The position numbers and the translations under genes are program-made. Below the pieces are notes generated by a model. It saw only the letters and a program-made list of their open reading frames with translations. It was not told the origin of the DNA and did no database searches. From a virus, in IMG/VR virus record IMGVR_UViG_3300027976_000042, positions 1 through 59,527 of that record: a stretch of DNA of 59,527 nt, one strand, 5' to 3'. The stretch's first letter is position 1. Each line of letters opens with the position of its first letter. Of the stretch, positions 11,408 to 48,899 are shown in pieces.

Positions 11408-12562
11408 TTACACGTTCGCCTCAATATCAGTTTTTTGAAAGGGGGCGTTTTGGAATCTTTTGGCTGCCTCTTTCGCCATGGAAATGGCCCCCTTCATGTT
11501 TCGGTGCCCCGCGATGAAGCCCTCTTCCCTTGCGAACATTGCGCCGTTTTTGACATCACTGCCCGTGGCGGCGTCTAGCTTTGCCCCTCTTAGCCCCCCC
11601 CATTCTTTTGGGAGCGGGCTATTTGACTCCCACGACCCGAGACTCAGGGGGACTGATTTGACGAGCCAGTAGTGCCCGCCCTTGGATGGGAATACCACAA
11701 ACCTGACGCCTCCCTTCTTTATGATTGCTCTCTGCCATGGAACGAAGGCGGGCAACAGAACGATACCGCTCGAGATCATTGACGCGTCTCTGGCCTCTAG
11801 CGCATCGGCGATGACCCTTGACGCCAAAGCTTCGGAGGCTAGGTGAATGATCTCACGTTGCATCATCTCGGATACGACGTAAACCGATCGGACAAAGATG
11901 GTTCGGATCGATAGACCTCTTTCCAGCCAAGAGAACGAATATCTTGCCATGATTCTGTTCAGGGTTGGGGAAGTCGTCGGGCCCCAAGTGACATCGACTC
12001 CATCTGGGTCACCTGGCTTCAGCCACTTCATCTTCCCCTCTTCGTCTTTGGACGCAGTCATCTTGTAGTTGGTGTCTACCGCGTCTACTGGCGCCACAAA
12101 AAACCGATCAAATTCTCTGGCGACCTCCTCGATGATTTTTGGGGCCAAAATTTCGGGGTGCGTCACCGCGATTTTCTGGCTTAGAACTCGGGCAATAGCG
12201 ATTTTGCCGTATCTGTCCCAAACCAAGCCGGCTGAGGCGTAGGGGATCCCAGATTGTCTGATCTTCCCTTCAGTCCCCGATTTCCACTGATGGTGATCAA
12301 ACCTGCCGCTGTCCGGGTCATACACAGACCCGACGTCCACAAGAATGTCCATCTTGCTTAGAGCGTCGGATCTCCGGGTTCTAATCACGGCCTCTGGGTT
12401 TATACCAAGTGCGAGCACTAAGGTTCCCACCCCGACTACCTCGTCCAAATGGCACGACCCTGAGTGAGTCGCTACTTTAGGGAAGCCGTCATTATTTTGA
12501 AAAAACTCTTCCTCTCCGAGTTCTCCTTCCCAATCTTCTCTGGGTTCGTCTGTTTCAGTCAT
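11408..12562 (-). CDS. MYG1-family (UPF0160) metal-dependent hydrolase, 384 aa
   Basis: The N-terminal motif KVATHSGSCHLDEVVGVGTL matches the family's THNG-x-F-H-x-DE. VDVGSVYDP and then RFDHHQ match its VDVGG-x-YDP...DHHQ, which supply metal ligands in this DHH-like fold. The C-terminus matches the conserved end (PLPKEWGGLRGAKL, then GFIAGHRNMKGAISMAK). Length and motif order fit full-length MYG1, a 3'-5' RNA exonuclease in eukaryotes with bacterial relatives. All motif residues are present, so activity is plausible. The ATG overlaps the previous stop (ATGA). Its role in a phage is unknown; RNA turnover is an inference. Confidence 0.88.
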   Translation of the reverse strand: MTETDEPREDWEGELGEEEFFQNNDGFPKVATHSGSCHLDEVVGVGTLVLALGINPEAVIRTRRSDALSKMDILVDVGSVYDPDSGRFDHHQWKSGTEGKIRQSGIPYASAGLVWDRYGKIAIARVLSQKIAVTHPEILAPKIIEEVAREFDRFFVAPVDAVDTNYKMTASKDEEGKMKWLKPGDPDGVDVTWGPTTSPTLNRIMARYSFSWLERGLSIRTIFVRSVYVVSEMMQREIIHLASEALASRVIADALEARDASMISSGIVLLPAFVPWQRAIIKKGGVRFVVFPSKGGHYWLVKSVPLSLGSWESNSPLPKEWGGLRGAKLDAATGSDVKNGAMFAREEGFIAGHRNMKGAISMAKEAAKRFQNAPFQKTDIEANV

Positions 12563-13555: not shown

Positions 13556-16500
13556 TTATCCAATTTTTATAGGACTGTCGATTGCGATAGCCCCTGATTT
13601 GTAAGCCTCAACCGCTTCCTCCCTCGTTTTGAATGTCAACACTTCCGAGCTTTTTGGATTTGGCTTTGTAGCATTGAACAGGCCTAGGATGAATTCCTGA
13701 CTTGGAATGTAATGCGGCTTCCTCTTCGAAATCGAAAGAAGGTTTTTGCTCGGAAACATTTTCTCTCGAATCTCCTTGATGGCTTCCGGCGAGATGGGCA
13801 CATGGACGTTCATTTGGTCTCCGTCGAAATCTGCATTGAACGGATTTACGACAAGAGGGGAAATCCTAATGGCATTCCCCGGGACTAGGATTGGATCAGC
13901 CCCGGCGATCGAAAATCGGTGAAGTGCCGGATCCCTGGAATACATGGCGGGGCGGTATTTCATCTCCTCGAGCAGGAAGTTCTTCGCAATCGGAGTCCTT
14001 TCTTCGATCTGCCTCGCAGCCTCGTTGGGTTTCATCCCGGCTCTGACCATTCTTCCCATCGTAAAAGGGGAGTAGGAGGTCCAGGCGATATCCTCAGGCA
14101 AGCCGACCTGGTCCATGTTCAGTCTGGCATCCGGGACGATTACTGAGCGCCCCACGGTATTCACTGGGTGACCCAGGACTTTTGACATGAACAGTCCCGC
14201 CTTCGGTCCTTTGCCGTCCCCTGTGAGAGCCTTCAAGAATCCTTTGATCCCTTTTTCTCTTGTCTCTGCATGGATTGGATCTCCGACACCCTGGATCGCT
14301 TTCACGGCGTCATAGATCGAAAGTCTTTCGTCCATCAAGTCCGCGTCAGGTAGGATTTCTCTGTTCGATCGATAAGAAGCTCGAGCGTTCAGGAGGTCTT
14401 TGTAGAGGTAATTGGAGTCTGACACGATGGTCATGTCACCCATCTTCACAGCGGGACGGAATGCCGGCGGCATCACTGGGACCTTGGAAATCATCATATC
14501 TCCTGCCGACAACCCGGCATTCCGAAGCCCCTTGATGGCTTTGAGCTTCTTGAGCGCGTCGTTCCTGGCCGAGCCTCTCGTTGCCTTCACTGTCTCCAAA
14601 GAAGCTTTCTCCGCGGCCGGAAGATCGATGCTGTCCAGGGCCTTCTTCAGTGCCTTGGTCCCTGTGCCTCCCTGGTAGGGCTTTTCGCCCGAGAGGACCG
14701 ACCTCATCCCTTTTGAGGTGAGGCCTAGAATCGCCCTGAGTGAATCTTCCATCACCGGATTGGGAATTGGGTCATCGAGTTTAATCACCCCCCATCCCCT
14801 TTGCTGTGGCCCTCCAAAAATCGAGTAGTCAAAAAGACCCCCTTTGATTGGCTCTCCGGTCTTGTCGTCGATCGTGTCGAATGAGTTCACCTCAATCGGG
14901 CGAAGCTCGTCGACGTCCTTGTCCGTCATGGCCGAGATGCTAACTGTCCTGTCGTTTTCGTTCACCCTGATTCCAGCCGCCCTTAGCGTGTTGAGATACT
15001 TCTTGTAGATGAACGGGACCTTTGGCGGGTTTGGAAGCGGCTTCCCGGAGGTGATACCTTTCCAGATCTCCGGATCGTCGACTCCGCGGTAGACGTGGGC
15101 ATCTCTGAGAACTTCTGTGGCGCCATACCCGGCCAGCGCCGTATTCATGAGGCCTCCCAGTCTTTTGGCTCCTTCCGCCCCTCCTTTCGCTGGTTGCTCG
15201 TTGATGTCTGTGGCTCCGTCATCCCGGGCCGAGATTTTACCTTCAGCCATGTGCTCGAGCTTCATGAAGTATTGAACTCCAGTCATCACGTCGTCAATCT
15301 TCCTCCCTGTCTCCTGGTCTGTGAGCGTCTCGTTTGGTTTTACGCCAGCGGCGAGCAACTGCTTCTTCACGTAAGCCAGGGTGTCGCCGTCTGTTCCGTC
15401 TTTCAGGACAAGCCTTTGGCCGGTCTTTCGGGCAATCTTACCGAGTTGGGCCTCAAATACCATAGCCGGATTCACCCGGCCGATCAGGGCAGCTGGGTTG
15501 ATAAAGATCTCGATTGGATCCCCATTTTCGTCGACCGGCATTTTGTTGTCAGGAATCACCTTCCCGATAACTCCCTTGGCGCCTTGGCGAGCCGAGAGTT
15601 TATCTCCAACGGCCGCCGGGGCATCATATTTGATATTGATCCTGAATCCTTTCCTCCCTGAGAACGAATCAGTCACGAAACCTTCGTGCGCTTTTTCCCA
15701 GACCTGGGAATTGTCGTCGAAGGCCCCTTTCATCATCTTCCCAAGATTTCCGAGAGCAGAGTCCTTGGACGTGACGAGTTTTGGCCGAAAAGAGAGAGCT
15801 ACCGGATCCCCGGGATTGACTACAGACCCGAGCTTCAGCATCCCGTTGTCGTTAAGTTTGTCCAGTTGGTCGCGTGTGTATCTGCCCGGGAACATTGAGA
15901 GAAATCTCTTCTTTCCCACAAGGTCCCCTCTGGAGGTGTCCACTTCGACTTTAGCCAGATGAGACGAGGTCAGCTTCCGAGCTGCGGATTCCGACACTGC
16001 AATAGAATCTTCGAATGAAGATCCGCCTGGTGCCGCAGCAAAGGCGACTCTGAGGTTTCGCCCTAGGGCCAAGTCTCCGTCAGGGGTGACGTAGTTGTTT
16101 TTGGCTATGGGCTGGCCGGCAAGGATCTTGTCCCCGATTTTTACCAGAGATGTTTCATGGACAAACGTCTTCTTTGCATTTGGAAAGTATTCATAAAGCT
16201 CCTCGTTCCAGGTTTTCCCGTCAGCTCCTTTGAACTTGATAAAGTCTTTCCCGATGTTCACGACTTCGCCGTCTTTTCTTGCGTTTCGGAGCCCAATTTT
16301 CCGCCCAAGAATTCTGGAAGTGCCCTCTCCTGTTTCGTCGTCGTAAGCGTCCACCAGCGGGGCCTCCTGCTCGGATGTCGGGACCGCCTGGGTAAAATAT
16401 TTGGCGCTGATGAAAAGCCTGGACCCCTTCATATTGAAAGCTCCGGGAATCAGGTTACTCGCGTCGGCAAACATCTGCCTGGATCCTATCATCTCGTAAT

Positions 16501-16582
16501 CGGCATCTGACTTGTGAATCATGTCTGTCCCCTTGCCGGTGAAGGCCGGCAGGAGAGGGTCCGTAGTTGGGGTTGGGTCCAT
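13556..16582 (-). CDS. Fused RNA polymerase chain: beta C-terminal part plus beta' N-terminal part, 1008 aa
   Basis: Residues about 20-545 are the C-terminal part of beta. They include RLFISAKYFTQAVP (cellular MGSNMQRQAVP), GDKLSARQGAKGV (328 and 336 match the two catalytic-centre lysines), INPAALIGRVNPA, and the end GGLMNTALAGYGATEVL. From about 550 the chain continues as beta': GLFDYSIFG, VMPPAFRP, the NTVGRSVIVPDARLNM region, and the catalytic NADFDGDQMNVHVP with Asp 918, 920 and 922. It stops about 85 residues later, where beta' would go on to the bridge helix and trigger loop. The N-terminal Cys zinc site of cellular beta' is absent. Beta starts where the 789-residue gene product ends, so the two gene products must assemble. 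A phage multi-subunit polymerase is certain; its promoter specificity and partner subunits are not visible. Confidence 0.93.
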   Translation of the reverse strand: MDPTPTTDPLLPAFTGKGTDMIHKSDADYEMIGSRQMFADASNLIPGAFNMKGSRLFISAKYFTQAVPTSEQEAPLVDAYDDETGEGTSRILGRKIGLRNARKDGEVVNIGKDFIKFKGADGKTWNEELYEYFPNAKKTFVHETSLVKIGDKILAGQPIAKNNYVTPDGDLALGRNLRVAFAAAPGGSSFEDSIAVSESAARKLTSSHLAKVEVDTSRGDLVGKKRFLSMFPGRYTRDQLDKLNDNGMLKLGSVVNPGDPVALSFRPKLVTSKDSALGNLGKMMKGAFDDNSQVWEKAHEGFVTDSFSGRKGFRINIKYDAPAAVGDKLSARQGAKGVIGKVIPDNKMPVDENGDPIEIFINPAALIGRVNPAMVFEAQLGKIARKTGQRLVLKDGTDGDTLAYVKKQLLAAGVKPNETLTDQETGRKIDDVMTGVQYFMKLEHMAEGKISARDDGATDINEQPAKGGAEGAKRLGGLMNTALAGYGATEVLRDAHVYRGVDDPEIWKGITSGKPLPNPPKVPFIYKKYLNTLRAAGIRVNENDRTVSISAMTDKDVDELRPIEVNSFDTIDDKTGEPIKGGLFDYSIFGGPQQRGWGVIKLDDPIPNPVMEDSLRAILGLTSKGMRSVLSGEKPYQGGTGTKALKKALDSIDLPAAEKASLETVKATRGSARNDALKKLKAIKGLRNAGLSAGDMMISKVPVMPPAFRPAVKMGDMTIVSDSNYLYKDLLNARASYRSNREILPDADLMDERLSIYDAVKAIQGVGDPIHAETREKGIKGFLKALTGDGKGPKAGLFMSKVLGHPVNTVGRSVIVPDARLNMDQVGLPEDIAWTSYSPFTMGRMVRAGMKPNEAARQIEERTPIAKNFLLEEMKYRPAMYSRDPALHRFSIAGADPILVPGNAIRISPLVVNPFNADFDGDQMNVHVPISPEAIKEIREKMFPSKNLLSISKRKPHYIPSQEFILGLFNATKPNPKSSEVLTFKTREEAVEAYKSGAIAIDSPIKIG

Positions 16583-16682
16583 TCCAAGACCTTAGCTTAC
16601 TGACCCGTTTCTTCAAGCCTGCGGATTAAAAGGCCGTCTCCCTGAAGTTCCCCATCATCTCCTTATAGTCCCTTTCGTGAAG

Positions 16683-17105
16683 TTAGGAATAGTCCCAGAT
16701 CTTGGATGTCTGCTTTTTTGTGGGAGTCTTTGATCCGAAGCAGTGGAACCCGGTGAATGACTTCGACATCTTGACTGCATCCCAGATGAGACCTTCAGCC
16801 TCCTCTCTCCTGCGTTGCCCAAGCTCTTCCCGGTCCCGCCCATGCATCAACGCACCTTTCAAGGGCCGGTAGCCCTCAGGCGGCTCCCAGTGATCATCCT
16901 CGAGGCAAAGCTCGTTCACTCCCTTGAAGCATTTCCTGCCTTCGATGATTTCCCGCTGGCTGTCGAGCGAGATCGGTTCCTCGCCGTCCACGATGCACTC
17001 AAGGACCGAGAGGGCCCCTTGATGGTCACCCTCGTGCCACCGGTCCCGGACGTGCTCCGTGATAAACTCTCCCGAGATCGAAAATGACACTGATGCTGTG
17101 GTCAT
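16683..17105 (-). CDS. Hypothetical protein, 140 aa
   Basis: A mostly helical protein with LCLEDDHWEPPEGYRPLKG in the middle and a basic C-terminus containing KTPTKKQTSK. It overlaps the upstream stop by one base. It belongs to the block of six small genes that separates the two RNA polymerase genes. No family recognised. Confidence 0.6.
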   Translation of the reverse strand: MTTASVSFSISGEFITEHVRDRWHEGDHQGALSVLECIVDGEEPISLDSQREIIEGRKCFKGVNELCLEDDHWEPPEGYRPLKGALMHGRDREELGQRRREEAEGLIWDAVKMSKSFTGFHCFGSKTPTKKQTSKIWDYS

Positions 17106-17611
17106 CAGGCGTCAGGCTCCTTGTGTCTCCTCAGAGCTTCTGCGTGATACTCCGAACCCATGTCTGCAATCTCCCGCACAAAGGCAATTGCATCCTTGTC
17201 ATTCAGGAAGGTCTCGGATTCGTCCAGTCTTTGGATTTCGTCGCCGTTGAATAACCCCCAACCTTCTCCTGAGGCCCGAGCGTTGTCGAATTGGCAATCG
17301 GGGTCTTCTTCCGGACCTTCGTCCGGAGCCTCCATTATAATATCTGCCATCGCCTTAGTTTGGATCCCTCTTTTTAGGGCTTCCCTGTCCCTCCTCCACC
17401 GATATAGACTGACGACACTGGCAGCCGAGACTTCCTGGGACCTGGACAAATGCCAGATTTCCTCGACCTCCTCTTGTGGGAGGTTGTCGACAATGACTCC
17501 ATAGTCAGTTTCCACGGAAAACAGGCCTGTCCTCTTGTCGTGGCTAATCACAATGGCGTTGCCGAATCTTCTGCCGTCCTTGGTAAATAGTAGCTGTCCT
17601 TGATATATCAT
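17105..17611 (-). CDS. Hypothetical protein with two small phage domains, 168 aa
   Basis: Residues 1-55 (FGNAIVISHD, then VETDYGVIVDNLPQEEVEEI) resemble a common phage beta domain with an F-GN-A-I-V ... TD-x-G pattern. Residues about 108-160 (GEGWGLFNGDEIQRLDESE) resemble another recurrent phage module. The combination looks like a fusion. Function unknown. Confidence 0.6.
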   Translation of the reverse strand: MIYQGQLLFTKDGRRFGNAIVISHDKRTGLFSVETDYGVIVDNLPQEEVEEIWHLSRSQEVSAASVVSLYRWRRDREALKRGIQTKAMADIIMEAPDEGPEEDPDCQFDNARASGEGWGLFNGDEIQRLDESETFLNDKDAIAFVREIADMGSEYHAEALRRHKEPDA

Positions 17612-17635
17612 TTTTCTTTTTCTTGGGTTTTGCTT

Positions 17636-18130
17636 TTAAGGTCTCCGTATTGCCGATCCGAATTCTGGACTTTCTTCTTCTGGCAGCCCGATTGCTCTTA
17701 CCGCCTCTAGAGACATAAATACAAATTTGTTTCCATCCGTAACTGCTGCGTTGAAGATTTTGTTGAAGGCCTGAAACTTCATTCTCCAGATCACTGGGTG
17801 AAGATTTTTGAATATTTTTTCGAGATCGTCATCGATGTTTATTCTCCCGCTGCTATCTATAAACCCGTGCCTTTCTGTCTCTTCCTCTGTTAGATTTAAG
17901 CACCTAATCGTAACGTAGTCCTCCTCTGCAAATTTAATGCACGCCGAACATGGATTGCTAGACGCTATTATGTGTCTTGGGGCGCTTGTAGCCGATTCCG
18001 GCATCTTGAGCTTTTGCTTAAGTCTGGGTGAGAGTCGTCCAAACAAAATTAGCGATTCGGTTTCTCCACACCAAAAGCAGACGCTCAGTGACGGGTTTAC
18101 TCCGTGGTTTGGGTCAATAATTATATCCAT
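17636..18130 (-). CDS. Putative zinc-binding protein, 164 aa
   Basis: CFWCGE (about residues 18-23) and CSACIKF (about 61-67) give two Cys-x2-Cys pairs, as in a zinc-ribbon protein family I have seen in phages (CFFCG ... epC-x2-C). The remainder is a helical domain with IWRMKFQAFNKIFNAAVTD. It is part of the small-gene block between the polymerase genes. Confidence 0.65.
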   Translation of the reverse strand: MDIIIDPNHGVNPSLSVCFWCGETESLILFGRLSPRLKQKLKMPESATSAPRHIIASSNPCSACIKFAEEDYVTIRCLNLTEEETERHGFIDSSGRINIDDDLEKIFKNLHPVIWRMKFQAFNKIFNAAVTDGNKFVFMSLEAVRAIGLPEEESPEFGSAIRRP

Positions 18131-18157
18131 AGTCTTTGTGTTATCGTTTAGCCTTCG

Positions 18158-18649
18158 TCACCAGTCATACACTCTTAAGAGCGGTATTGTCGGGCCGTCG
18201 GCGTCAAATCTTAACCAGAAGTCTCTGACATCTTCTTCTGGTTCTCCGTGAGACCCTATCGTTATTTGAGTTCTCAGCATTGACCTGATTCTCTCCGTGC
18301 AATCCAAAACACTGTCAGGTAAATCTGTGTAACGGGTAACGTCAGAATGAACCATATAGCCATACCCAGTTTTAATCACGTCCCCGAAGTCGCTACATCC
18401 ATCTAGCGCGTCGGGACCGCTCAGGTGAGATGTAGAGAGCGTGATGACTAGGTCCACCTGTATGAGAAGTGAATCCAGGAAGTCGAACATCGATGTGAAA
18501 GGATCCTTATCACCGGGACCCATAAAGCCATAATTTCTTCTTGATGGAGGCAAAGCTGGCTCTGGAGTGGGAGGCAATTGAGCCCGGACAAGAGAAATGT
18601 GAGGGCCCTGGTCTTCCAGGTCGTCAATGTCATCGTTCAGGCCAGTCAT
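18158..18649 (-). CDS. Hypothetical protein, 163 aa
   Basis: An acidic N-terminus (MTGLNDDIDDLEDQGPH) and Pro-rich linker precede a helical domain with FLDSLLIQVDLVITLSTSHL. It overlaps the end of the upstream gene by 20 bases. No family recognised. Confidence 0.6.
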   Translation of the reverse strand: MTGLNDDIDDLEDQGPHISLVRAQLPPTPEPALPPSRRNYGFMGPGDKDPFTSMFDFLDSLLIQVDLVITLSTSHLSGPDALDGCSDFGDVIKTGYGYMVHSDVTRYTDLPDSVLDCTERIRSMLRTQITIGSHGEPEEDVRDFWLRFDADGPTIPLLRVYDW

Positions 18650-19022
18650 AGGACTTTGCCTCCTTATTCCAGCTGATCATTTGGTAGCTCACGCTGTCAA
18701 TTTCAAAAACCCTTTTGTTCTCTGTCTTCTCCGTTGCTTCATGCAGCCTGCCAACCCAGATCATTCCGAGGTCCCAATCCTCATGTCGATCGGCGCTGAC
18801 AACCACTCCGACTTGGAACCGACCATCAGGAAGTTCCTTTATCATCTCGTTGAGGGGCTCACATCCGTTCTCGTGAGGGTAGCCTCCCTCCTCCGCCAGG
18901 TAATACCCGGCGGCGGCAATGTCATCAAGGGTCTCCTCTTCGTTTTCCGAGTAAAGGAAAAACGGATGCCCATCCGATTGATTCATGTGTTCGGTCACGT
19001 CTTCTACCGTGAATTCTGGCAT
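18630..19022 (-). CDS. Acidic hypothetical protein, 130 aa
   Basis: A helical acidic protein containing YSENEEETLDDIAAAGYYLA and a later strand region around VGVVVSADRHEDWDLGMIW. The start has an A-rich leader (GACTAAAATG). Function unknown. Confidence 0.6.
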   Translation of the reverse strand: MPEFTVEDVTEHMNQSDGHPFFLYSENEEETLDDIAAAGYYLAEEGGYPHENGCEPLNEMIKELPDGRFQVGVVVSADRHEDWDLGMIWVGRLHEATEKTENKRVFEIDSVSYQMISWNKEAKSYDWPER

Positions 19023-19069
19023 TTTAGTCTAATTTATTTTTTGGTTTGTCTGGTCCTTCGGCGGCGGAA

Positions 19070-19990
19070 TTACAGAGCTTTGCCCGCTCTCCACTCTTCC
19101 ATCTCGAGATCTGAGACTCGAAACCAAGTCTGAACCCAGAATCCGTCTTCCGATCTCCTGACTTGAGCATCTTCGTCGATCAATTGTTCAGGGTCGTCGT
19201 CGAATACCCACTTTGCGAAGTCCTTTGCTTGGCATTCAGCTTCTGGTTTGTTTGCGGTAGGATCCCAAACTGAATCCAGGAAAGGGCATTCAGTCTCTCC
19301 TGAGAGGATCCTGACCAAGTCGCTTGGCCGGACTCTTCGATAATTTTCGAAATCTGCATTATCGGCTACGTGGAGACGCTCATCATAGTCGACAGCCCTC
19401 ACTCGAAATCCGGAGCACAATCTGGGAAAGGGGGTGTCAAAAGCATTTTCGTTGGCGACAAAAATGTATCCCACGAGCATAAAGCCTGAAAACGCAGAGC
19501 CGCCTCTTGATCCAGGATAGCCGGTATTTTTGATCAAGGGGATCCGAAAAGTAGGAAAGTTCCAGTCAAGCAGATCACTTGCGTAGATCATTTGATTATC
19601 GATCAAGACCTGCCGAAATTTCTCACACTCCTCATCCATCCTGCCCTTTACCGTGCCGTAAATAGAAGGCATCAGAAATCCAATGACTAAGGACGTGAGC
19701 CCTCCGTCTAACCTTGTCGCTGTTTCGCTCTCGGAAACAGACAGGTCAACCTGCCATTTTATCGGCCCATCTGCCAATCCGGAAAACGGAAAGTTAGGGA
19801 GTTTGAATTCCTCGAGAGATATGGACGCTTGATTTACCGACACGACCTTGTGGGTCTTCGATTGAAGCAAGAAGGTGCCCTGCACAGGGGAAGTCCCCTT
19901 GATTCTGACGACCCCGGGGTTGTCACAGTTTCCGCCTAGGACGATACCTAAGGATATGTCCTGAATTTTTGTTCGATGTATTTTAGCCAT
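19070..19990 (-). CDS. Hypothetical protein, 306 aa, between RNA polymerase genes
   Basis: It overlaps the stop of the beta N-terminal gene by one base, so it is probably co-translated with it. The N-terminal half is beta-rich (ISLGIVLGGNCDNPGVVRI) and the C-terminal 90 residues are acidic with FAKWVFDDDPEQLIDEDAQV. I looked for beta' C-terminal motifs and found none. Its position suggests, but does not show, a link with the polymerase. Confidence 0.65.
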   Translation of the reverse strand: MAKIHRTKIQDISLGIVLGGNCDNPGVVRIKGTSPVQGTFLLQSKTHKVVSVNQASISLEEFKLPNFPFSGLADGPIKWQVDLSVSESETATRLDGGLTSLVIGFLMPSIYGTVKGRMDEECEKFRQVLIDNQMIYASDLLDWNFPTFRIPLIKNTGYPGSRGGSAFSGFMLVGYIFVANENAFDTPFPRLCSGFRVRAVDYDERLHVADNADFENYRRVRPSDLVRILSGETECPFLDSVWDPTANKPEAECQAKDFAKWVFDDDPEQLIDEDAQVRRSEDGFWVQTWFRVSDLEMEEWRAGKAL

Positions 19991-22359
19991 TAGCCATGGA
20001 ATTTAGGGAATAGAACTCTGCGTCCATAAATCTGAGAGGGGGTCCTCCAGACTTTTTTCCCCGTCCTGGCGTCGATCAGCGGAATGAAGACCTGATTGTT
20101 CGGTCCTTTTCTCGCTGACGATATGAGCCTTTGGTCAATGCCGACCATCCCCGATTCCGGAGTCCTGACAACGTCCACCACGCCCAATTGCGACGGGTGA
20201 ACATTCCTGGCCTCAACTGGAATCGATTCGCTGCTTCCAATCCCACCTTCACCAATCTGCGTGATGCGGAATCTGGCGTCCCATAGGTCAACTGGATTGA
20301 CTCCACCGACCGCCTGAGACAGGCTGTTGCCGACTATGAGACTCTCAAGTTGCGGGGTGAAGTGCCCCGACTTCAGGCCTTTCAGCGACCCATTGTATCT
20401 TGATCGGAATAGTAGAGTCCGGCCGATCTGGCCGGCGTCTTTAGCTACCCTCTCTTCCATGAAGTCATCCACAGTGTGGAAGGCCTGGTTCGCCTTGTCG
20501 TCTCGGTCATCCACGTCGGCCTCTCCCCTATTCATGGCGAGGAGCTTGCTGGTGACGTCTACAATTGTGTCTGGTCCGAAATTGGAATGGCTATGCCCAA
20601 GATTCCTCATCGAGATCTCTGGGTCAATTTCCATCTTGCTCAGTTGCTCCACTACGATACTGGCCCTTTCTTTTGTCAGGGCGTCCCCCTTGCCTCTCGG
20701 TAAGTCTGCCTGGGCCGGGCCGAACGATGAGGTCAAGGCCGCCAACTTAGGGCGAGCGGCACCGGGGATGGAGATTAAATCCCCAGCTCCCATCTCGGTT
20801 TTTATCAGCCTCTTGACCCCACTGGGGACCGATCCCTTCAGTGTGTGAATCCTGAACCCGGAAGGTTTGTGTGTGATCCCTGAGATTCCTTTATCTTCGG
20901 AGTCCACGAAGAACTCATCAGGCACCTCTCTCATGAGAGCGGTCAGGATTACCTGCTTCTGCTTGTAATTACCGCGGTCAGATTCTTTCTTTGCGGAAAT
21001 TAGAAGGTCGACCGCCCTTGATTGAGCCGTCTTCCTTTCTGATGCCGGAGACTTTACGTCATCGCTGGTTATCCAGTTCCTGAATTCCTGAATCGTCATC
21101 GGGGTAATGTTTCCGCACTTCCACCCCGCATTGAAATTTGAAAGATACAGATCTTTTGCCTCTTGGCGATTCTTTGTCCCGAACACAATTTTGTGCTTGT
21201 CAAACTTGCCACTCCCCTGAGTGACCTGATCTATGATAAAGACTATTTCAGAGCTTAGGTCTGGGCCCAGAAATACATCCAAGTGGTCTCCGTCGGCTCC
21301 GACTGTCCCTTTGATGTAGCCGTAGTCGCATTCCATTTTAGAGCTCCACCGGGCTCCGTTGGGTGCTATCCCGGATCTGATTGAGCCTTTCGGGTTCTCG
21401 ATCGTAATCGGGAGCCCGTCGATGCGGACATGGCCTTTCGCGTAATTTCCTGCGACGGCTCGAGCGTCGGATGGATTTTTGTCGACCATCCTTCTGGCCT
21501 GAGATAGGGCGCCTTTGTTGACGCTGAAGACGTCTTTTTTTCCGGGAACCACAATCAAGGCTGCTGCGGTCTTCCGCGGCCCATCGACAGAATCTCCACT
21601 GTCTTCTGGTTCTTCGTCCGGGATAGACAGGTCATCGGCAATTGCCGCGGCCTCCATCCTCTCCCTGAATCGATTAGCCCTGGTGCCGACCACCTTGTCG
21701 AAAAATTTATCAAAAGCCTTGTCGTCGGCCCCTTTTGAGTTCTGCTCCCAGACTTTTTCCCCCCATCTTTGCTTTAGGATGTCGTCGCTGACCCCGACTC
21801 CTTTCAGAATTGGGTAGAGTTTGATCCTGGAGTTCCCAATCATTGCTCGGAAGACTCCTGTCTCCGGCTCCATAAAAACCCTCATGGACGGTCCAGTCCC
21901 GGGTTTCGGATTCACGTGGGCCTCGAGTTCTCCATTCTCTTTTCTCCTGGAGTATACCCCAGGCCGCAGCCGGGTCTGGCTTGAGACCATGTATTCAGTC
22001 CCGTTATTGATGAAGGTCCCTCTCTCTGTCAGGTATGGGACGTTTGCGACAAGATGCTTTTTCTTTGTGTCGAGGAGTTCCCCGGTCACCTTATTGATCA
22101 TCTTGAAGTCTCCCCTAAGGGGGACCGAGAGTCGACCTCCGGACATCACAGCTTTCTTCTCGGATACTGGACCGTAGTAGAGCTTGTCCTCGTCGTAACT
22201 CAGATTAGAAAGTTCGATCCTGACGTCATTGTCCTCAAGTGGGAAGCGAGTCTCAAAGGCGCTTTTGGTCCTGTCCAGTATTGACGTGCGCAAAGCGTCC
22301 GTATCGTAAAACGATCGGAGCTGTGATTCGTCAATTTCTTGGATCTTGTCGCCGTTCAT
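19990..22359 (-). CDS. RNA polymerase beta subunit, N-terminal part, with inserted pyrophosphatase-like domain, 789 aa
   Basis: Beta signatures are NVPYLTERGTFINNGTEYMV and then SSQTRLRPGVY near 107-136, LLAMNRGEADVDDRDD near 606-621 (fork-region GE-x-x-DD-x-D), SQAVGGVNPVDLW near 681, IGEGGIG, and VEARNVHPSQLGVVDVVRTP near 715-733. The chain ends where cellular beta continues with the IPFLEHDD block; that block begins the 1008-residue protein. Residues about 250-535 are an insertion. Its first half has YGYIKGTV and GADGDHLDVFLGPD (about 354-367), which fit the family I pyrophosphatase signature D-G-D-x-x-D-V and the phage 'InPase' domain. Its second half (about 447-520) contains GISGITHKPSGFRIH, another phage module. 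Whether the insert is catalytic is inference. Confidence 0.93.
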   Translation of the reverse strand: MNGDKIQEIDESQLRSFYDTDALRTSILDRTKSAFETRFPLEDNDVRIELSNLSYDEDKLYYGPVSEKKAVMSGGRLSVPLRGDFKMINKVTGELLDTKKKHLVANVPYLTERGTFINNGTEYMVSSQTRLRPGVYSRRKENGELEAHVNPKPGTGPSMRVFMEPETGVFRAMIGNSRIKLYPILKGVGVSDDILKQRWGEKVWEQNSKGADDKAFDKFFDKVVGTRANRFRERMEAAAIADDLSIPDEEPEDSGDSVDGPRKTAAALIVVPGKKDVFSVNKGALSQARRMVDKNPSDARAVAGNYAKGHVRIDGLPITIENPKGSIRSGIAPNGARWSSKMECDYGYIKGTVGADGDHLDVFLGPDLSSEIVFIIDQVTQGSGKFDKHKIVFGTKNRQEAKDLYLSNFNAGWKCGNITPMTIQEFRNWITSDDVKSPASERKTAQSRAVDLLISAKKESDRGNYKQKQVILTALMREVPDEFFVDSEDKGISGITHKPSGFRIHTLKGSVPSGVKRLIKTEMGAGDLISIPGAARPKLAALTSSFGPAQADLPRGKGDALTKERASIVVEQLSKMEIDPEISMRNLGHSHSNFGPDTIVDVTSKLLAMNRGEADVDDRDDKANQAFHTVDDFMEERVAKDAGQIGRTLLFRSRYNGSLKGLKSGHFTPQLESLIVGNSLSQAVGGVNPVDLWDARFRITQIGEGGIGSSESIPVEARNVHPSQLGVVDVVRTPESGMVGIDQRLISSARKGPNNQVFIPLIDARTGKKVWRTPSQIYGRRVLFPKFHG
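21070..21447 (-). other. Pyrophosphatase-like domain inserted in RNA polymerase beta
   Basis: This segment codes for residues about 305-430 of the beta N-terminal protein. The order Y-G-Y-I, three bases of loop, then D-G-D-H-L-D-V matches the substrate-metal site of soluble inorganic pyrophosphatases, with His replacing the usual Pro. DKHKIVFG and a helix with AKDLYLSNFNAGW follow, as in the stand-alone phage domain. The larger insertion spans roughly 20755-21612. Confidence 0.75.
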
Positions 22360-22379: not shown

Positions 22380-23393
22380 TTAGCCTGTGATGGGCAGGGG
22401 ATGGGCGTCAACTCCGATATCCATGAGGTCCTCTTCTAGGCCCAAAGATACCTCATCTGAATCTTCCCTGGCGGATTCCCCAATTTCTTGCTCCCGAGAG
22501 TCATTGGACCTCCGGGAAAATTCTTGAAGATTGAGGGCTATCAGTGTGTTTTGCAGAACCGATGCTGCGCCCTTCATAGACCGAGCTTCGCCGATCGACA
22601 CACTGGACATCAACAAGTCTGGATTTTTCTCTCGGAATTGTTTCCGGTTTTCGCTGATGTAAAGGTCGTCGAGGTCCCGCTCTTTTTGGAGCCTGCTCCT
22701 GTGCGTCAGAATTCCTGCCGCCACGGTAGTCAGGACCATCCCCCCAACCGCGAAGTCAGTGGCCCTGGAGAATTTATCCCCAAAGGACATAACGGCAGCT
22801 TTCCTTGAAGGCTCGGAACCCGAACCAGTTATCTTGTCGAGCCCCCCTTTTACAATATTTGGGAGATCGGATACTGAATCTGATACCTCATCTGACACCT
22901 CATCGACCACGTCCCTCTGAGGGACGCTCTCCTGCCCCCGGGTATGGGTGATCTTGTCCAGGTGCCTTGACTTCACAGTCCGAATTTCTCTCTCGAGCTG
23001 AGATTTCTCTCGGTTGTCCAGGTAGTTCGAAAGGATAGTGTAAGTTGCGACCCCGGGCAATGTCATTGCGGCAATTGAAACCGGGAGGTCCCAGGTTACG
23101 GGTCCTCGCGGAACTCCACCAAACCAGCCCCCCTCGGCAGAGAAGGTTTTCGACGCGACCTTTCGGCCCTCTTCCTGATCACCTTGTTGGGCCTCGGAGG
23201 CTGATCTCGCCTCAATTTTAGGAGCCGAGAGGAACTTCTTTCGGTTCCTCTCTTCCAGCTCTCCTCTGACGTCCGAGACCGCCTTCACCCCGAGCGCGAT
23301 TGCCACTCCTTTTGCGGCCGAAATGGTTCCGTATCTTGCGAGCCTGTCTTTGACTAGGCTGTAGACTCCGAGTCTGGGTTGGGAATTGGGCAT
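22380..23393 (-). CDS. Membrane or virion-associated protein, 337 aa
   Basis: Two hydrophobic segments (about residues 105-125, VSIAAMTLPGVATYTILSNY, and 214-232, FAVGGMVLTTVAAGILTH) are separated by a charged helix and an acidic stretch containing DEVSDEVSDSVSDL. The C-terminus is acidic. It starts 28 bases after the upstream stop and lies immediately before the beta N-terminal gene. Three consecutive proteins of this type precede the polymerase, which would suit an ejected or inner-virion role, but this is inference. Confidence 0.6.
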   Translation of the reverse strand: MPNSQPRLGVYSLVKDRLARYGTISAAKGVAIALGVKAVSDVRGELEERNRKKFLSAPKIEARSASEAQQGDQEEGRKVASKTFSAEGGWFGGVPRGPVTWDLPVSIAAMTLPGVATYTILSNYLDNREKSQLEREIRTVKSRHLDKITHTRGQESVPQRDVVDEVSDEVSDSVSDLPNIVKGGLDKITGSGSEPSRKAAVMSFGDKFSRATDFAVGGMVLTTVAAGILTHRSRLQKERDLDDLYISENRKQFREKNPDLLMSSVSIGEARSMKGAASVLQNTLIALNLQEFSRRSNDSREQEIGESAREDSDEVSLGLEEDLMDIGVDAHPLPITG

Positions 23394-29154: not shown

Positions 29155-30948
29155 TTACACTTGCCCGCTTAACACCGCCTGCATCCCAGCATCTTGCCCC
29201 ACGCTCCTTGCCAGGCCCCTCTTCTCCTTCATTTTCTGAGTGACCATCGCATGGAGAGCCTCGTTTGTCTGCTTAATCGACCTGAGCCGTCGATTAACCT
29301 CCGCTTGTGGGATGTTGGGGTCAAGTAATTCTCCGGCTATCTGATCGGCTTGCGACACAGACTCCATTGGGTCGACGCCGCCTTGGCCGCTTTGGCCGCC
29401 CTGACTGCCCTGACTGGAATCAACGAGGGAGAGTTGCTCCATTTCGAGCTTCTCCTGAGCCTCCGTTTGTTTCCTTTGCTGGGTCATCTGCTCCTCAATG
29501 ATGAGGTCTTGCTCGAGAGATGGGTCAATCCCCATCGGGCGGAACCCCGTCTCCTGCGAGACCATCTGACCAGACACAGCTTGAAGTCTCCACATTTTGT
29601 TGTCGAGATCGTCAACAATCGTAACTGATTCCATTTCACAGGTGTAGCTCCCGTGCTCCAGATACGACGTTAGAATGTCTGCCCACCATTGCAGAACTTT
29701 GTTATTCCCGTTCACAAGGTTTGACCAGCTCCGTTCGAAAAGCCTGAGCGCGACTGGGGCCGCCTGCAGTGTCATGCTGGCTCTGTAAAACTCCGGAGGA
29801 ACCCCGCGAGCATTTAGAATCCGTCCTTCCTCGTCTTCGACCAAGTCTCGAGTCGAGGCGGACCTTCCCTCCCCGCCTATCGCCTGATAGTCGACTGGGA
29901 AAGGGAGCACGTGCCAGTCAATTCCACTCATCCTGTGCGTTTCTACCGCGGACTGGAAATTAGCAGCAAACTTGGACATGGACGCATTCATAATCGAATT
30001 GCCCTCTGAGTATGAACCTTGCTTTGGACTGACCAGCCTCATGGGCGTGATGTAGTCCAGCATTAGCCTCTCGTCCTGGCGCATCAGGATCTGGAGGCGA
30101 AAGAAATTCCTGAAAGCGCCCAGGATTGGAGGTGACCCCCACCCCCTGGTTGGCAGTCCAGCAAGGGTTGGCTCCTTCAGGTGAAGAACGTATTCAGGCC
30201 TGAGCTTTAATTTCTGATTCCTCCTGATGCAGTCCAGGACCGGCATTGGCAGAGTCTTGAGAAAAAATTGACTGTTGTCCCGGACCTTTCTTTTTGTGTG
30301 CTCTGAGATTGATACCCAGTATTCCGCCTCCTGGGTGATGTCGTTGAATTCGATGTGAACCTTCTTGGGGTCCCACACGACCATCTGGACCTTCTTCGGG
30401 TCTTTGTCGGGACGATCGATTGCTTTGTGCACCGTGGTTTTTTTGCACTTCCTACAGTCGAGGGTGAAGTCTCCCGTCTGAAAGTTAAACGCTGCGGTGC
30501 TGGAAGCTCCCGAAAATGTCGTCTCGGTTTTACACGTTTGGCACGAAAGAGACCGGATGAACGGAAAATGCGGAGATATGACGGCATTGCCGTAGGCCAT
30601 AAAATTCACGTCAACCTGCCTGAGCTTTGAGACAGTCGTCGTGTCTCTTGTCAGGACTTCTTCAAACTCCTTCCTTTTTTTGTCGTCGCCTCCGGATAAC
30701 TTGATGGAAGTCAGGAAATAATCCACAACCCTCTCTGAGCCTTTCTTGTAGGTGGGAAAGTTCTCGTAGAGAAATTCACACATTCGAAATGCCTCTGACA
30801 TGGAATTGGGGACATATTCAGATGCCATGTCTCGCCAGACATCGCCAAACTTACTCCTCGCCAGCCCCGCCATCGGAATTGAGGTTGGGACTGCGATTCC
30901 GCTGGCGGACGCCCACGAATTTGATGCCGGTGCGATAGAATTGTTCAT
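29155..30948 (-). CDS. Probable portal protein, 597 aa
   Basis: Length, helical content and the order of segments fit a phage portal: an N-terminal helical region, a wing (VWDPKKVHIEFNDITQEAEY), WGSPPILGAFRNFFRLQILM as the conserved portal core helix, and GVPPEFYRASMTLQAAPVAL followed by a long C-terminal helical and Gln-rich tail. A zinc-ribbon insertion (CQTC about 135-138, CRKC about 164-167) is unusual. The portal forms the dodecameric DNA gate of the capsid. The start overlaps the previous stop (TAATG). No terminase or major capsid gene was recognised nearby. Confidence 0.65.
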   Translation of the reverse strand: MNNSIAPASNSWASASGIAVPTSIPMAGLARSKFGDVWRDMASEYVPNSMSEAFRMCEFLYENFPTYKKGSERVVDYFLTSIKLSGGDDKKRKEFEEVLTRDTTTVSKLRQVDVNFMAYGNAVISPHFPFIRSLSCQTCKTETTFSGASSTAAFNFQTGDFTLDCRKCKKTTVHKAIDRPDKDPKKVQMVVWDPKKVHIEFNDITQEAEYWVSISEHTKRKVRDNSQFFLKTLPMPVLDCIRRNQKLKLRPEYVLHLKEPTLAGLPTRGWGSPPILGAFRNFFRLQILMRQDERLMLDYITPMRLVSPKQGSYSEGNSIMNASMSKFAANFQSAVETHRMSGIDWHVLPFPVDYQAIGGEGRSASTRDLVEDEEGRILNARGVPPEFYRASMTLQAAPVALRLFERSWSNLVNGNNKVLQWWADILTSYLEHGSYTCEMESVTIVDDLDNKMWRLQAVSGQMVSQETGFRPMGIDPSLEQDLIIEEQMTQQRKQTEAQEKLEMEQLSLVDSSQGSQGGQSGQGGVDPMESVSQADQIAGELLDPNIPQAEVNRRLRSIKQTNEALHAMVTQKMKEKRGLARSVGQDAGMQAVLSGQV

Positions 30949-44874: not shown

Positions 44875-47800
44875 TTACTGATTTTCCGTTTCCGGGAATA
44901 TTATTGTGTCTGCGACCAAGGAGCGTTTGCCTCCAAAGTCATTGATTCTTCCATTCACCACAACCAAGTCCCTGACTTTTAAGAAGTCTGCGACCTCAGA
45001 ATAGAGGTCACTGAAGACTGTTACCGAAGCAGTTGAATCTTGATTAGCAACCGAGATGAAGCACATGGCGTCTCCCTTTTTCGTGTTGATCTTCTTGATT
45101 TCCCTGACAACTCCCCCTATCGACGTTCTCGCTCCGTCTGCCCTCGCTGCTACGACCGAAGCACACTGAACGGATCTCTCCGTTATCCTGGAGAGGTATC
45201 CAGCATAGTCCGGCTCGATCATCGGGAACGCATCTCCCTGAGCCTTCATTACCTGAATCTCGTTTAGATCCGTGAACGAGCTTTGTTTCTCCCCCCTCAG
45301 CTCCAGATATCTCCTGTAGATTGCATTTCTTCCCAGGATACTATCCCGGGGTCCGACGCCGAACAGGTTATCCATGGCCCCAGACCAGATCAAAGCTGAG
45401 AATACTCTCTTGTTCGCTTTCTTCCGATCAATCTTCTGGTAAAGCTCCTCCATTGAGCAGAACGGCCTGGCCTCGATGACAGCTTCGGCCGCCGTCTTGA
45501 CTCCGTGGACCATCCTGAGAGGGAACACGATGCGTCCCTTGTCTGACCTGCCCACCTTGTCGGCGACGAACACATCAACATCACTTGATATGACATCAGG
45601 TGTCGAGATGTATCTCGAGCAGAATCTGGCGTTAGCTCTCAGGTCGTCCTTGCTACTATTCTGCAGGGCGCTTGCCCACCACTCGACCGGGTAATTCTCC
45701 TTGAGGTATTGGCAAACATATCCCAAATAAGAGTAAGCCAGTGAGTGACTATTTGACACCACCACCCCATTGGCGATGAAGTTGTGATCCTTGCTGTCGA
45801 CCTCAAGGTCCCGGGTGGGCGCCATGCCTAAGCTTCTGACAGAGACAATTTTGCTCAATTGCGTAATCTCGCAATCGCTGTGTGGCCACTGAGTGAACAC
45901 ACGCCATCCATTTTGCAGGATTTCCCATAGAGGGCGCTGGGTCCCGTCTTCGCAGAGGTATTTGTGATTTATTGATGTCTGCAATTTCATCTCATTCTCC
46001 AGCTCCACCTCCCACAGCTCGGCTTCCGAATCCATCACGTCCGTCACCCGGACGAAATGTTCAGAGCCCGTAGCAACTTCATAAGCCTTCACGAATTCTC
46101 CCTTCTCAATGCATCCGATGGGCCTGTCCCCGTTGGGCGTTTGCAGTTTCACGTCAAGCCCGATGCATTTATTAAACGAGTAGTTCGAGGCGGCAATGCA
46201 GAGCGAGATAAATGATTCGGTCTGGGATTCCGTCCATCCATTGGCTGACAGCCTTAATCTGATCTCCGGGATCAGGGCATCCATTTTGTCTTTCTTTTTC
46301 TTCCCCACAATCTCCCGGATCTCATCGGCTTCTTCCTCTGAATAGCCGCAGGCAATCTGGAACATCTCTGTGATCTGCTCCTGAAAAAGACAAACCCCGC
46401 CGGTGGGCTCGAGAATGCCTTTTACCGATGGGTGAACGAAAGACGGGTTCTTAGACATATCCCTCACTCCAACCCACTGGTCGACCAGAGTTGTCTCCCC
46501 GTCCGGCATCAAAGCAAACAGGGTCCCTGGCCTCCCGGCGGCGGTCATCTGGGCCAGGTCGAGAATCGAGACTGGCTTGTATCGGCGAGAGAGATCGATC
46601 CCGATCGGCTTGTTGAACTGAAACACCGTTTCATTTCTGCCTTCATGAAAAGCTAACCAAGTCTTCTCGTCATCCAAGGGAATGTCGTAGATATCGATGT
46701 TCTTCCCCCTGATTCTTCCGACCCATGATACGGCGCCGCTGACATCCTTTAGGGTGTTCAACCCTAGGATGTCCATCTTTATCAGCCCCATGGCCTCCAC
46801 CGGTCCCATCGGATACTGAGTGCATTCTTCTCCGTTTACCCGGCAAATGGGGATGATGTCTGGAATTGAAGAGTCTGCTGCGGCATAGGCCGAAGCGTGT
46901 CGCCCGATTGATTTCGGAATATTGAGGACGTCCTCAACTCCTCGTCTTACCTGGGGATACTTCTCAAAGAAGTTTGCCACGATCGGTATTTCGTCAATGA
47001 TCCCGGGATGAAAGACTTCCATTTCGTCCGTGTATCCGAAGATCCATCCTTTTGAGTCCGCTACCCCTTGAGGGGCAAAGGGCAATGCTTTTGCCACCTC
47101 ATCCACCTCAAGAGCCTTTTCCGGATCGGTCTGAGTCGATAGCACCACCCGAGAGACCTCCCTGATTGCGCTTCTGCCTCTGATGGTTCCCAGGGTGCAG
47201 ATCCTGATGAATCTGTCCCCAAGCTCGGCTTTCATAATCTCAGCGACCACTGATGGGTTGGCAAAGTCCAAATCGATGTCGGGGAATTTTCTCCTACCGA
47301 TCCGAGCATTAGACAGAAATCTGTAAAAGCTTAGGCCCCACTTGATAGGGTCCAAGTGGGTGATATTCAAAAGGTAAGCCAGCAAACATCCAGCCGCGGA
47401 TCCACGCCCGGGGCCGCTATTCTCGCCGGCAGCTCTGGCTTTCCGGCACACCTCCTCGACAAAGAGGAAGTATGGCAAGAAGTTGACAACCCCATTGTTG
47501 GCAATGACTTCGATCTCCTCTTCCAGCCGTGTTATATATTCCGGTTCGTCTCTTGGCATTCTGCCATGCTCCTTAATCAGATCTGCGATCATCCTAAGAT
47601 ATTGGGCGTCAAGGTCTTCCGGAAATTTGTCTTTCACCTTCTGAGGGACGTTGACGGAGGGCATCCGAATCCGGGTCTCGACGTGGATTTTGTCCACCAT
47701 TGAAACCAGGAGTTCGTTGTTTTCGACAGCCTCTTTGAACTCGGAAGAGAAGTCTGCCAACCCCAGGCTGCCGGACCATAGATCCCACGCCTGCTCCGTG

Positions 47801-48057
47801 GTCATCTGGTAGTAGGCCTCTGTGAATCTCCAGCCATCCGGGTTCCCGTTTTGCAGGAGGATGTCTTGAACAAACTTGAGGTCGGGGCTGACCATATGAC
47901 TGTCCGTGGTCAGCAAAAGCGGAAGTTTTAGGTCGTTTGCCAGCTCCATCATCTCCAAGTTTATGAACCTCTGGGTGTCACCACTTGGCATGTCGAACGT
48001 GCACTCCTTGCCTACTTTGCCACCTGCCACGCTCCACGATTTGATCCTTTTTCCCAT
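44875..48057 (-). CDS. dnaE: DNA polymerase III alpha (DnaE), C-terminal polypeptide with intein, 1060 aa
   Basis: It begins with the end of the PHP domain (LKLPLLLTTDSHM; Asp 52 and His 54). The polymerase core follows: GPGRGSAAGCLLAYLLNIT (about 215-233), PDIDLDF with catalytic Asp 260 and 262, and KMDILGLNTL with Asp 429. The fingers region NYSFNK is interrupted by a 139-residue intein (631-769) and resumes at SHSLAYSYLGY. A C-terminal OB domain (about 960-1045, ISVANQDSTASVTVFSDLYS) is present. After splicing the chain would be 921 residues. The start overlaps the previous stop as TAATG and has its own strong GGAGGAAA site, so the N-terminal PHP part is a separate protein. It is the replicative polymerase of the phage. 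Confidence 0.95.
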   Translation of the reverse strand: MGKRIKSWSVAGGKVGKECTFDMPSGDTQRFINLEMMELANDLKLPLLLTTDSHMVSPDLKFVQDILLQNGNPDGWRFTEAYYQMTTEQAWDLWSGSLGLADFSSEFKEAVENNELLVSMVDKIHVETRIRMPSVNVPQKVKDKFPEDLDAQYLRMIADLIKEHGRMPRDEPEYITRLEEEIEVIANNGVVNFLPYFLFVEEVCRKARAAGENSGPGRGSAAGCLLAYLLNITHLDPIKWGLSFYRFLSNARIGRRKFPDIDLDFANPSVVAEIMKAELGDRFIRICTLGTIRGRSAIREVSRVVLSTQTDPEKALEVDEVAKALPFAPQGVADSKGWIFGYTDEMEVFHPGIIDEIPIVANFFEKYPQVRRGVEDVLNIPKSIGRHASAYAAADSSIPDIIPICRVNGEECTQYPMGPVEAMGLIKMDILGLNTLKDVSGAVSWVGRIRGKNIDIYDIPLDDEKTWLAFHEGRNETVFQFNKPIGIDLSRRYKPVSILDLAQMTAAGRPGTLFALMPDGETTLVDQWVGVRDMSKNPSFVHPSVKGILEPTGGVCLFQEQITEMFQIACGYSEEEADEIREIVGKKKKDKMDALIPEIRLRLSANGWTESQTESFISLCIAASNYSFNKCIGLDVKLQTPNGDRPIGCIEKGEFVKAYEVATGSEHFVRVTDVMDSEAELWEVELENEMKLQTSINHKYLCEDGTQRPLWEILQNGWRVFTQWPHSDCEITQLSKIVSVRSLGMAPTRDLEVDSKDHNFIANGVVVSNSHSLAYSYLGYVCQYLKENYPVEWWASALQNSSKDDLRANARFCSRYISTPDVISSDVDVFVADKVGRSDKGRIVFPLRMVHGVKTAAEAVIEARPFCSMEELYQKIDRKKANKRVFSALIWSGAMDNLFGVGPRDSILGRNAIYRRYLELRGEKQSSFTDLNEIQVMKAQGDAFPMIEPDYAGYLSRITERSVQCASVVAARADGARTSIGGVVREIKKINTKKGDAMCFISVANQDSTASVTVFSDLYSEVADFLKVRDLVVVNGRINDFGGKRSLVADTIIFPETENQ
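45751..46167 (-). other. Mini-intein within DnaE, 139 residues
   Basis: Starts with Cys (CIGLDVKLQTPNGDRPIGCI, block A) and has a TSINHKYL block B with the T-x2-H. It ends DLEVDSKDHNFIANGVVVSN (blocks F and G), followed by extein Ser. No homing-endonuclease domain is present. The insertion falls between NK and SHS of the conserved FNKSHS motif, four residues beyond the site used by cyanobacterial split DnaE inteins. The residue before the final Asn is Ser rather than the commoner His. All residues needed for autocatalytic splicing appear present. Confidence 0.95.
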
Positions 48058-48899
48058 TATAGTATTTCCTCCGTCTCTAGGCTGCCTACAGAGACAACCC
48101 CACTGGATGTTAAATGTTTGATGAAGTCCTTCGTTCCGAATCTCTCGGGTGTAACCGAAATGATTTTCGTGACTCCGGGCTTTCCGGCGGCTTGCTTTGC
48201 GGTCATGTCTCCCAGGTTAGTCTCGAGAATGTCATACGGCATGAATGCACAAGTCTCTCCATCTTCTGTCTCGGCGATGACTACTTCTTTTGCCCAGTCT
48301 GAGTTTGACGGAGTGGGCATCACTTCCACAAATAGTCGACCCTTAAAGATTTTCCTAAGCCTCTTGATTGATTTGGCAGCTTCGTGCCTTTCACCCCTGA
48401 TGAGGGGGTAAGACACTGGCCCGAGAATACACCCGGTGCCGCAAATCAGATTCTCGGAGAAGTTGTAGAGATCTTGCCAGGTCACCCTTGGTTTTGAATT
48501 GCCGAACTTTTTGACAACTCGGCCTTCCTGCCACGATGTGTTGCAGAGACACATCAGGTCTCTGTAACCTGCCGTGTTCCTGGCCCACAGGGTCAGATGG
48601 AAGTAATCGAATTTCGTCCGTTTTTTCCCGGGCTGCTCCACAAACTCGTAGTCGTCTCCAGGGTGAAGGTAGACTTCAACCCCCGGTATGGGCTTTATCT
48701 CCCTCTCCCTGCTGAGGCGAAATAGATCGTAGTGTCCCATGACGTAGCCGTGGTCGGTGCAAGAGCACGCTAAAAGGCTGTGTTTGGTGCACCAATTGAT
48801 GTAATCGCCAACCGTGCTGACAGCATCCAATATGGAATTATCCGTATGGACGTGCAGTGGGTAAATTTTACTCTTGGTCGGGGGCTCCGTTTTTTTCAT
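48057..48899 (-). CDS. dnaE: DNA polymerase III alpha, N-terminal PHP polypeptide, 280 aa
   Basis: I start at ATG 48899 (MKKTEPPTKSKIYPLHVHTD), which overlaps the primase stop as ATGA. PHP motifs are HVH (16-18), CTDHG, GVEVYL, YFHLTLWARN and LICGTGC, giving most metal ligands of an active PHP phosphoesterase. The last Asp/His pair is in the downstream polypeptide. About 110 residues after LFVEVMP, to the end of this protein and into the next, have no counterpart in ordinary DnaE. The protein presumably pairs with the 1060-residue chain and may supply proofreading. Confidence 0.88.
   Translation of the reverse strand: MKKTEPPTKSKIYPLHVHTDNSILDAVSTVGDYINWCTKHSLLACSCTDHGYVMGHYDLFRLSREREIKPIPGVEVYLHPGDDYEFVEQPGKKRTKFDYFHLTLWARNTAGYRDLMCLCNTSWQEGRVVKKFGNSKPRVTWQDLYNFSENLICGTGCILGPVSYPLIRGERHEAAKSIKRLRKIFKGRLFVEVMPTPSNSDWAKEVVIAETEDGETCAFMPYDILETNLGDMTAKQAAGKPGVTKIISVTPERFGTKDFIKHLTSSGVVSVGSLETEEIL

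Follow-up and report, generated by a model that had tools for sequence, protein, structure and literature searches.

A pyrophosphatase-like InPase domain inserted in the beta lobe of a putative phage virion RNA polymerase

The linear virus contig IMGVR_UViG_3300027976_000042 of IMG/VR, a 59.5-kb fragment analysed here over its whole length of 59,527 nt (the window), encodes the N-terminal half of the beta chain of a multisubunit RNA polymerase (RNAP), in which a domain of the InPase family lies between two parts of the beta lobe. What would a pyrophosphatase-like domain do inside a polymerase? The initial annotation had recognized such a domain in frame within a phage beta subunit, with beta sequence on both flanks, and our searches confirmed it. 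Residues 300-430 matched Pfam InPase (PF18823) far above chance, scoring 167 bits where the cut-off is 26.8 (E value 2.6e-49), while residues ~31-212 and ~594-745 of the 789-residue chain matched solved RNAP beta chains (phmmer, best E value 1.7e-17). The open reading frame (ORF) is uninterrupted by any stop codon, and the modelled whole chain fell among RNAP beta structures in a Foldseek search. The parts of the gene are as follows.

19990..22359, minus strand: whole ORF, 789 residues, encoding the beta N-terminal half together with its InPase insert (profile and phmmer matches)
21664..22359, minus strand: beta residues 1-232, comprising the protrusion and the start of the lobe (phmmer matches to solved beta chains; occupied in all 25 insert-free relatives up to residue 229)
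20683..21663, minus strand: insert, residues 233-559 (327 residues), between lobe segments at what we call site A (alignment columns unoccupied in all 25 relatives, or almost so at the edges)
21052..21519, minus strand: InPase domain, residues 281-436, containing the PF18823 match (profile, AlphaFold2, Foldseek)
21277..21300, minus strand: metal-binding motif GADGDHLD, G354-D361, with D356, D358 and D361 (alignment; aligned with Escherichia coli pyrophosphatase over 24 columns in hhalign)
21190..21237, minus strand: further conserved residues D377 (IIDQ), D387 and K390 (FDKHK; FDEHK in the family) (alignment)
19993..20682, minus strand: beta residues 560-789, remaining lobe and Rpb2 domain 3 (profile, phmmer, alignment)

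The insertion had first been placed at residues 250-535; its presence was upheld, and the alignment to insert-free relatives widened it to residues 233-559. Homologous chains without the insert include those of Salmonella phage Arash and Vibrio phage D181, and in the close relative L237 the Pfam Rpb2 domain 2 spans the insert site, which places the site between two lobe parts. AlphaFold2 modelled most of both beta parts and the InPase region of the full chain with high confidence, and residues 252-279 and 482-556 with low confidence; on this model, the latter two segments may be flexible linkers that tether the insert. An assembly artefact is unlikely because the insert is in frame, lies at a site used by other lineages, and has a GC content (0.53) like that of its flanks (0.51 and 0.54).

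The acidic motif of the InPase domain is intact, and the conserved residues of PF18823 (E321, R328, W338, Y346, D356, D358, D361, Q378, D387, K390) are all kept. A His in place of the usual Pro of the motif had been pointed out as a departure, a view that we rejected: His is common in the InPase family, DGDH occurring in most of 31 sequences, and the odd residue is K388. The structure prediction that had been proposed as a check on the insert favoured the domain, with predicted local distance difference test (pLDDT) values of ~82-96 for the InPase region within the full chain and, for the region alone, a pLDDT of 91.6 and a predicted template modelling score of 0.87; the best 50 Protein Data Bank (PDB) matches of the InPase model were all pyrophosphatase entries, at modest scores. 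In E. coli pyrophosphatase, the phosphate-binding residues outside D-x-D-x-x-D are K29, R43, Y141 and K142. The InPase group is described as lacking a hairpin of classical pyrophosphatases (Iyer 2017, PMC5512222). We infer from the sequence that the domain has catalytic activity as a predicted metal-dependent phosphohydrolase, with pyrophosphate as its likeliest substrate.

The assignment to multisubunit RNAP is based on the beta domains that flank the insert and on the catalytic NADFDGDQ (DFDGD triad) of the beta' part, which is found in a second gene.

13556..16582, minus strand: second RNAP gene, 1008 residues, the beta C-terminal half fused to the beta' N-terminal half (PF00562, E value 4.3e-41; PF00623, E value 3.5e-26)

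Beta is split over two genes within 13556-22359, with unrelated small genes between them, a split common to L237 and L239; a beta split at a similar place in Vibrio phage D181 contains the gene of a homing endonuclease. The beta' C-terminal half, with the trigger loop, was not found within the 59.5-kb contig and may lie outside this linear fragment. The closest described polymerases are gp206/gp216 of Arash (PMC10585845) and those of Vibrio phages D69, D148 and D181, which have homologous polypeptides of beta and the beta' N-terminal half (29-32% identity over the 1008-residue gene) encoded near a portal gene. However, these have no lobe insert, and in Arash beta and the beta' N-terminal half form one chain, whereas beta of the window is divided between two genes.

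In purified Arash virions, gp206 gave the most spectra of any protein (3516), and the beta' protein gp216 gave 1210 (PMC10585845). The window polymerase is probably a virion RNAP because its Arash orthologue is the most often detected virion protein. The gene order is similar as well: a portal homologue lies upstream of RNAP in the window as in 87 of the sampled loci, and the Arash RNAP gene adjoins the portal gene.

29155..30948, minus strand: homologue of the Arash portal protein gp204 (E value 6.5e-50 to the Arash portal)

To see what else occupies the lobe, we compared 260 loci with this beta region, taken from IMG/VR scans and genome contigs (some share a contig, and a few of the genome-contig loci are bacterial); 246 of them were measurable at the lobe. 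Most of the 246 have only 40-71 residues at this place in the lobe; 225 loci have at most 75 and 20 have more. At site A, the longer lobes contained HAD and 2H domains (L004/L244), SET, HAD and 2H domains (L155, L156, L241, L242), SET and 2H domains (L243), an unnamed part with 2H (L240), a Cys-rich part with 2H (L005/L248 and L247), or a small Cys/His module (L337). Pfam cut-offs were passed by SET and 2H-SAK in L155 and L243 and by 2H-SAK in L004 and L240; the 2H domain of L005 scored just under the cut-off, and the HAD domain of L004 rests on PHROG 1238 (E value 2.5e-27) together with a DxDGT motif. About 40 residues beyond site A, at site B, L006, L007, L148 and L161 carry 2H-like domains, so named from resemblance only, in which the His motifs are lost. 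The larger lobes of L317 and L326 are inteins, and those of L312 and L314 have unassigned content. The inserts of L155, L156 and L243 combine a SET methyltransferase with HAD and/or 2H phosphoesterase domains, the latter resembling RNA end-repair parts. Inteins were also seen in the RNAP genes of L040, L021, L251, L259, L317 and L326, at sites distinct from that of the lobe insert. A viral scan with the single chain of the window as query gave no matches.

InPase was found joined to this polymerase family at a second position. In L250, L251, L259 and L260, it lies at the N-terminus of a beta and beta' polypeptide (E values ~1e-51 to 1e-50), and in L259 and L260 LysM (E value 1.5e-15) and Phage_lysozyme2 (E value 2e-8) domains stand between InPase and beta. 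A tree of the beta N-terminal half grouped the window with the insert-free L237-L239 and L296 (support 99/98), whereas the four N-terminal fusions were placed elsewhere in the tree, with L254 and L023, which have no InPase, as the next members of their clade (100/100). Since both the clades and the positions in the chain differ, two separate acquisitions are the simplest reading, and InPase probably joined this family twice. The second, apparently independent fusion strengthens the association of InPase with RNAP. A single ORF (L259:8216-15505, and likewise in L260) thus encodes a polymerase together with modules for cell-wall binding and lysis, and the presence of these modules on the L259 chain would fit a protein that crosses the cell envelope. 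The last viral scan gave no N-terminal InPase-RNAP fusion beyond these four contigs; apparent N-terminal extensions in L257, L269, L289 and L293 were rejected as extrapolation errors. Another family member, L206, has a stand-alone InPase gene (L206:21353-22333) ~9 kb downstream of its RNAP gene.

Taken together, we favour, by a modest preference, a virion RNAP that is co-injected and bears effector enzymes on its chain, in this case InPase with pyrophosphate as the likeliest substrate. On this view, the phage particle would contain the polymerase and deliver it along with the DNA for the transcription of early genes. The InPase domain and a small second module, attached by flexible linkers, would be acquisitions of the beta lobe, through which the RNAP would bring a metal-dependent phosphohydrolase into the host as soon as infection begins. 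The substrate would most likely be inorganic pyrophosphate, including the polymerase's own product, with a nucleotide-like host signal as the main alternative. Delivery of cargo is preferred over obligatory coupling because unrelated enzymes recur at one site on a polymerase that has a virion orthologue. Multi-domain inserts in the window and its relatives would place several effector-type domains in one chain; a profile search found no metallopeptidase domain in the 789-residue chain.

Several points weigh against this reading. Among the sampled loci, InPase occurs at the lobe in the window contig only, and K388 replaces a Glu that is nearly invariant in the family. Foldseek gave template modelling (TM) scores of ~0.4 or less and root-mean-square deviations of at least 6.5 Å between the InPase model and solved pyrophosphatases, and the hhalign profile alignment to the E. 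coli enzyme covers only the columns around the motif. We found no measured activity in the literature for any PF18823 member. Packaging in the window phage is argued by analogy from the Arash orthologue and synteny, and the Arash authors allow that abundant virion enzymes could be carry-over (PMC10585845).

The strongest rival is a coupled pyrophosphatase, held by its tether at the polymerase, that would act on the pyrophosphate leaving its own enzyme and so favour elongation and limit pyrophosphorolysis. We consider it unlikely, though the two InPase fusions, at two places in two clades, keep it alive. The pyrophosphate would be made by the very protein that carries InPase, and InPase domains of polyvalent proteins were suggested to clear pyrophosphate for early transcription or replication (Iyer 2017, PMC5512222). 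In the AR9-type RNAP of Bacillus jumbo phages, a phosphohydrolase is likewise fused to a subunit of a phage multisubunit RNAP (PMC7824862); however, that is an HD phosphohydrolase, the subunit is the C-terminal beta part, and the phages belong to another group. Against coupling, SET, 2H, HAD and Cys-rich modules occupy the same lobe site, and most relatives do without any insert. In general, host cells also already contain soluble pyrophosphatase, and the lobe runs along downstream DNA, not along the pyrophosphate exit channel. The suggestion of the initial annotation that the tethered enzyme could pull synthesis forward, taken as an action at the active site, is unsupported or weakened in view of the unrelated enzymes at the site and the low-confidence linkers, and nothing puts the insert at the secondary channel. 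It seems rather unlikely to us that this family has, on two or more occasions, evolved an RNAP whose built-in pyrophosphatase acts on its own product and, in the injected complex, drives early transcription.

Quite improbable is a packaging or docking module, in which InPase would mainly place the RNAP in the head and catalysis would be secondary or lost. Such a role would suit the K388 substitution and the occurrence of InPase as a C-terminal domain in portal or minor head proteins, as in the gp19 portal (PDB 9b41), which has InPase at residues 636-761; in the Pa193 portal, taken as the same protein, residues 529-765 show no density, and in other phages the RNAP hangs from the portal. However, the metal-binding aspartates are all retained, the insert-free RNAP of Arash is nevertheless found in virions, and enzyme domains of other folds occur at the same site.

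The insert also contains a second module and short K-x-A motifs.

20815..21051, minus strand: second module, residues 437-515, related to a domain of a separate gene upstream of RNAP in relatives (tblastn)

The module showed mostly 32-49% identity to the domain of this separate gene at ~40 relatives' RNAP loci, and the window has no second copy of it. K-x-A motifs stand at the borders of the insert modules (RKTAAAL at residue 262, SERKTAQ at 440, RPKLAAL at 536), and relatives' head-region proteins show a mild enrichment of KQA, KTA and KVA. They could be a processing or packaging signal; we set aside protease and packaging signals since the enrichment is weak and partly due to low-complexity sequence. 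K-x-A motifs (RKTA, RKVA and RKAA across both ORFs) occur also at residues 77 and 197 of the neighbouring ORF 22380-23393. It is very improbable that the insert is a neutral passenger or is lost from the mature protein, either in the manner of an intein or through cutting by a head protease: these motifs and the inteins elsewhere in relatives' RNAPs would allow it, but there is no known protease site, residues 225-565 show no splice motifs by eye (the Cys/Ser ... His-Asn-Cys/Ser/Thr ends being absent), and no intein model matched the 789-residue chain in a profile search, so that an intein or homing insert was rejected.

As the initial annotation had supposed, no described polymerase appears to share this arrangement: full-text searches of the open-licence literature turned up neither an InPase inside an RNAP nor enzymes in a phage RNAP lobe. 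Extra domains in the RNAP lobe are themselves familiar from SI1 of E. coli beta and other lineage-specific inserts; the insert in the phage differs from them in being an enzyme domain and, as we read the alignment, in lying in a different lobe loop. The known contexts of InPase are virion or polyvalent proteins, among which it is a mobile module (Iyer 2017, PMC5512222). The window domain resembles the PF18823 domains of polyvalent and portal proteins (PMC5512222; gp19, PDB 9b41) in sequence (~40-55% identity), in the retained motif and in a proposed virion protein as carrier, but it sits inside the lobe of a multisubunit RNAP beta chain, whereas theirs is a terminal position or one within a giant polyvalent protein. 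The virion RNAP of phage P23-45 (PMC10770324) likewise has a physical link to another virion function, but as a fusion with a tape-measure tail protein, whereas in the present family enzymes are inserted into the RNAP.

The co-injected polymerase with effector cargo would join two hitherto separate ideas, that of virion RNA polymerases and that of polyvalent effectors in virions. Were it correct, a large and little-studied phage RNAP family would use its lobe and N-terminus to load enzymes for delivery when infection starts, and the inserts would list candidate early host-takeover or counter-defence activities. The arrangement also makes the 2017 proposal of pyrophosphate clearing by InPase directly testable in a single polypeptide.

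Elsewhere in the window, downstream of the RNAP genes, a MYG1-family exonuclease-like protein is encoded at 11408-12562 on the minus strand (PF03690, E value 5.3e-54). A DNA polymerase III alpha with finger, NTPase and HHH domains is encoded at 44875-49001, also on the minus strand, and its PHP-like N-terminus is apparently a separate gene at 48057-49001.
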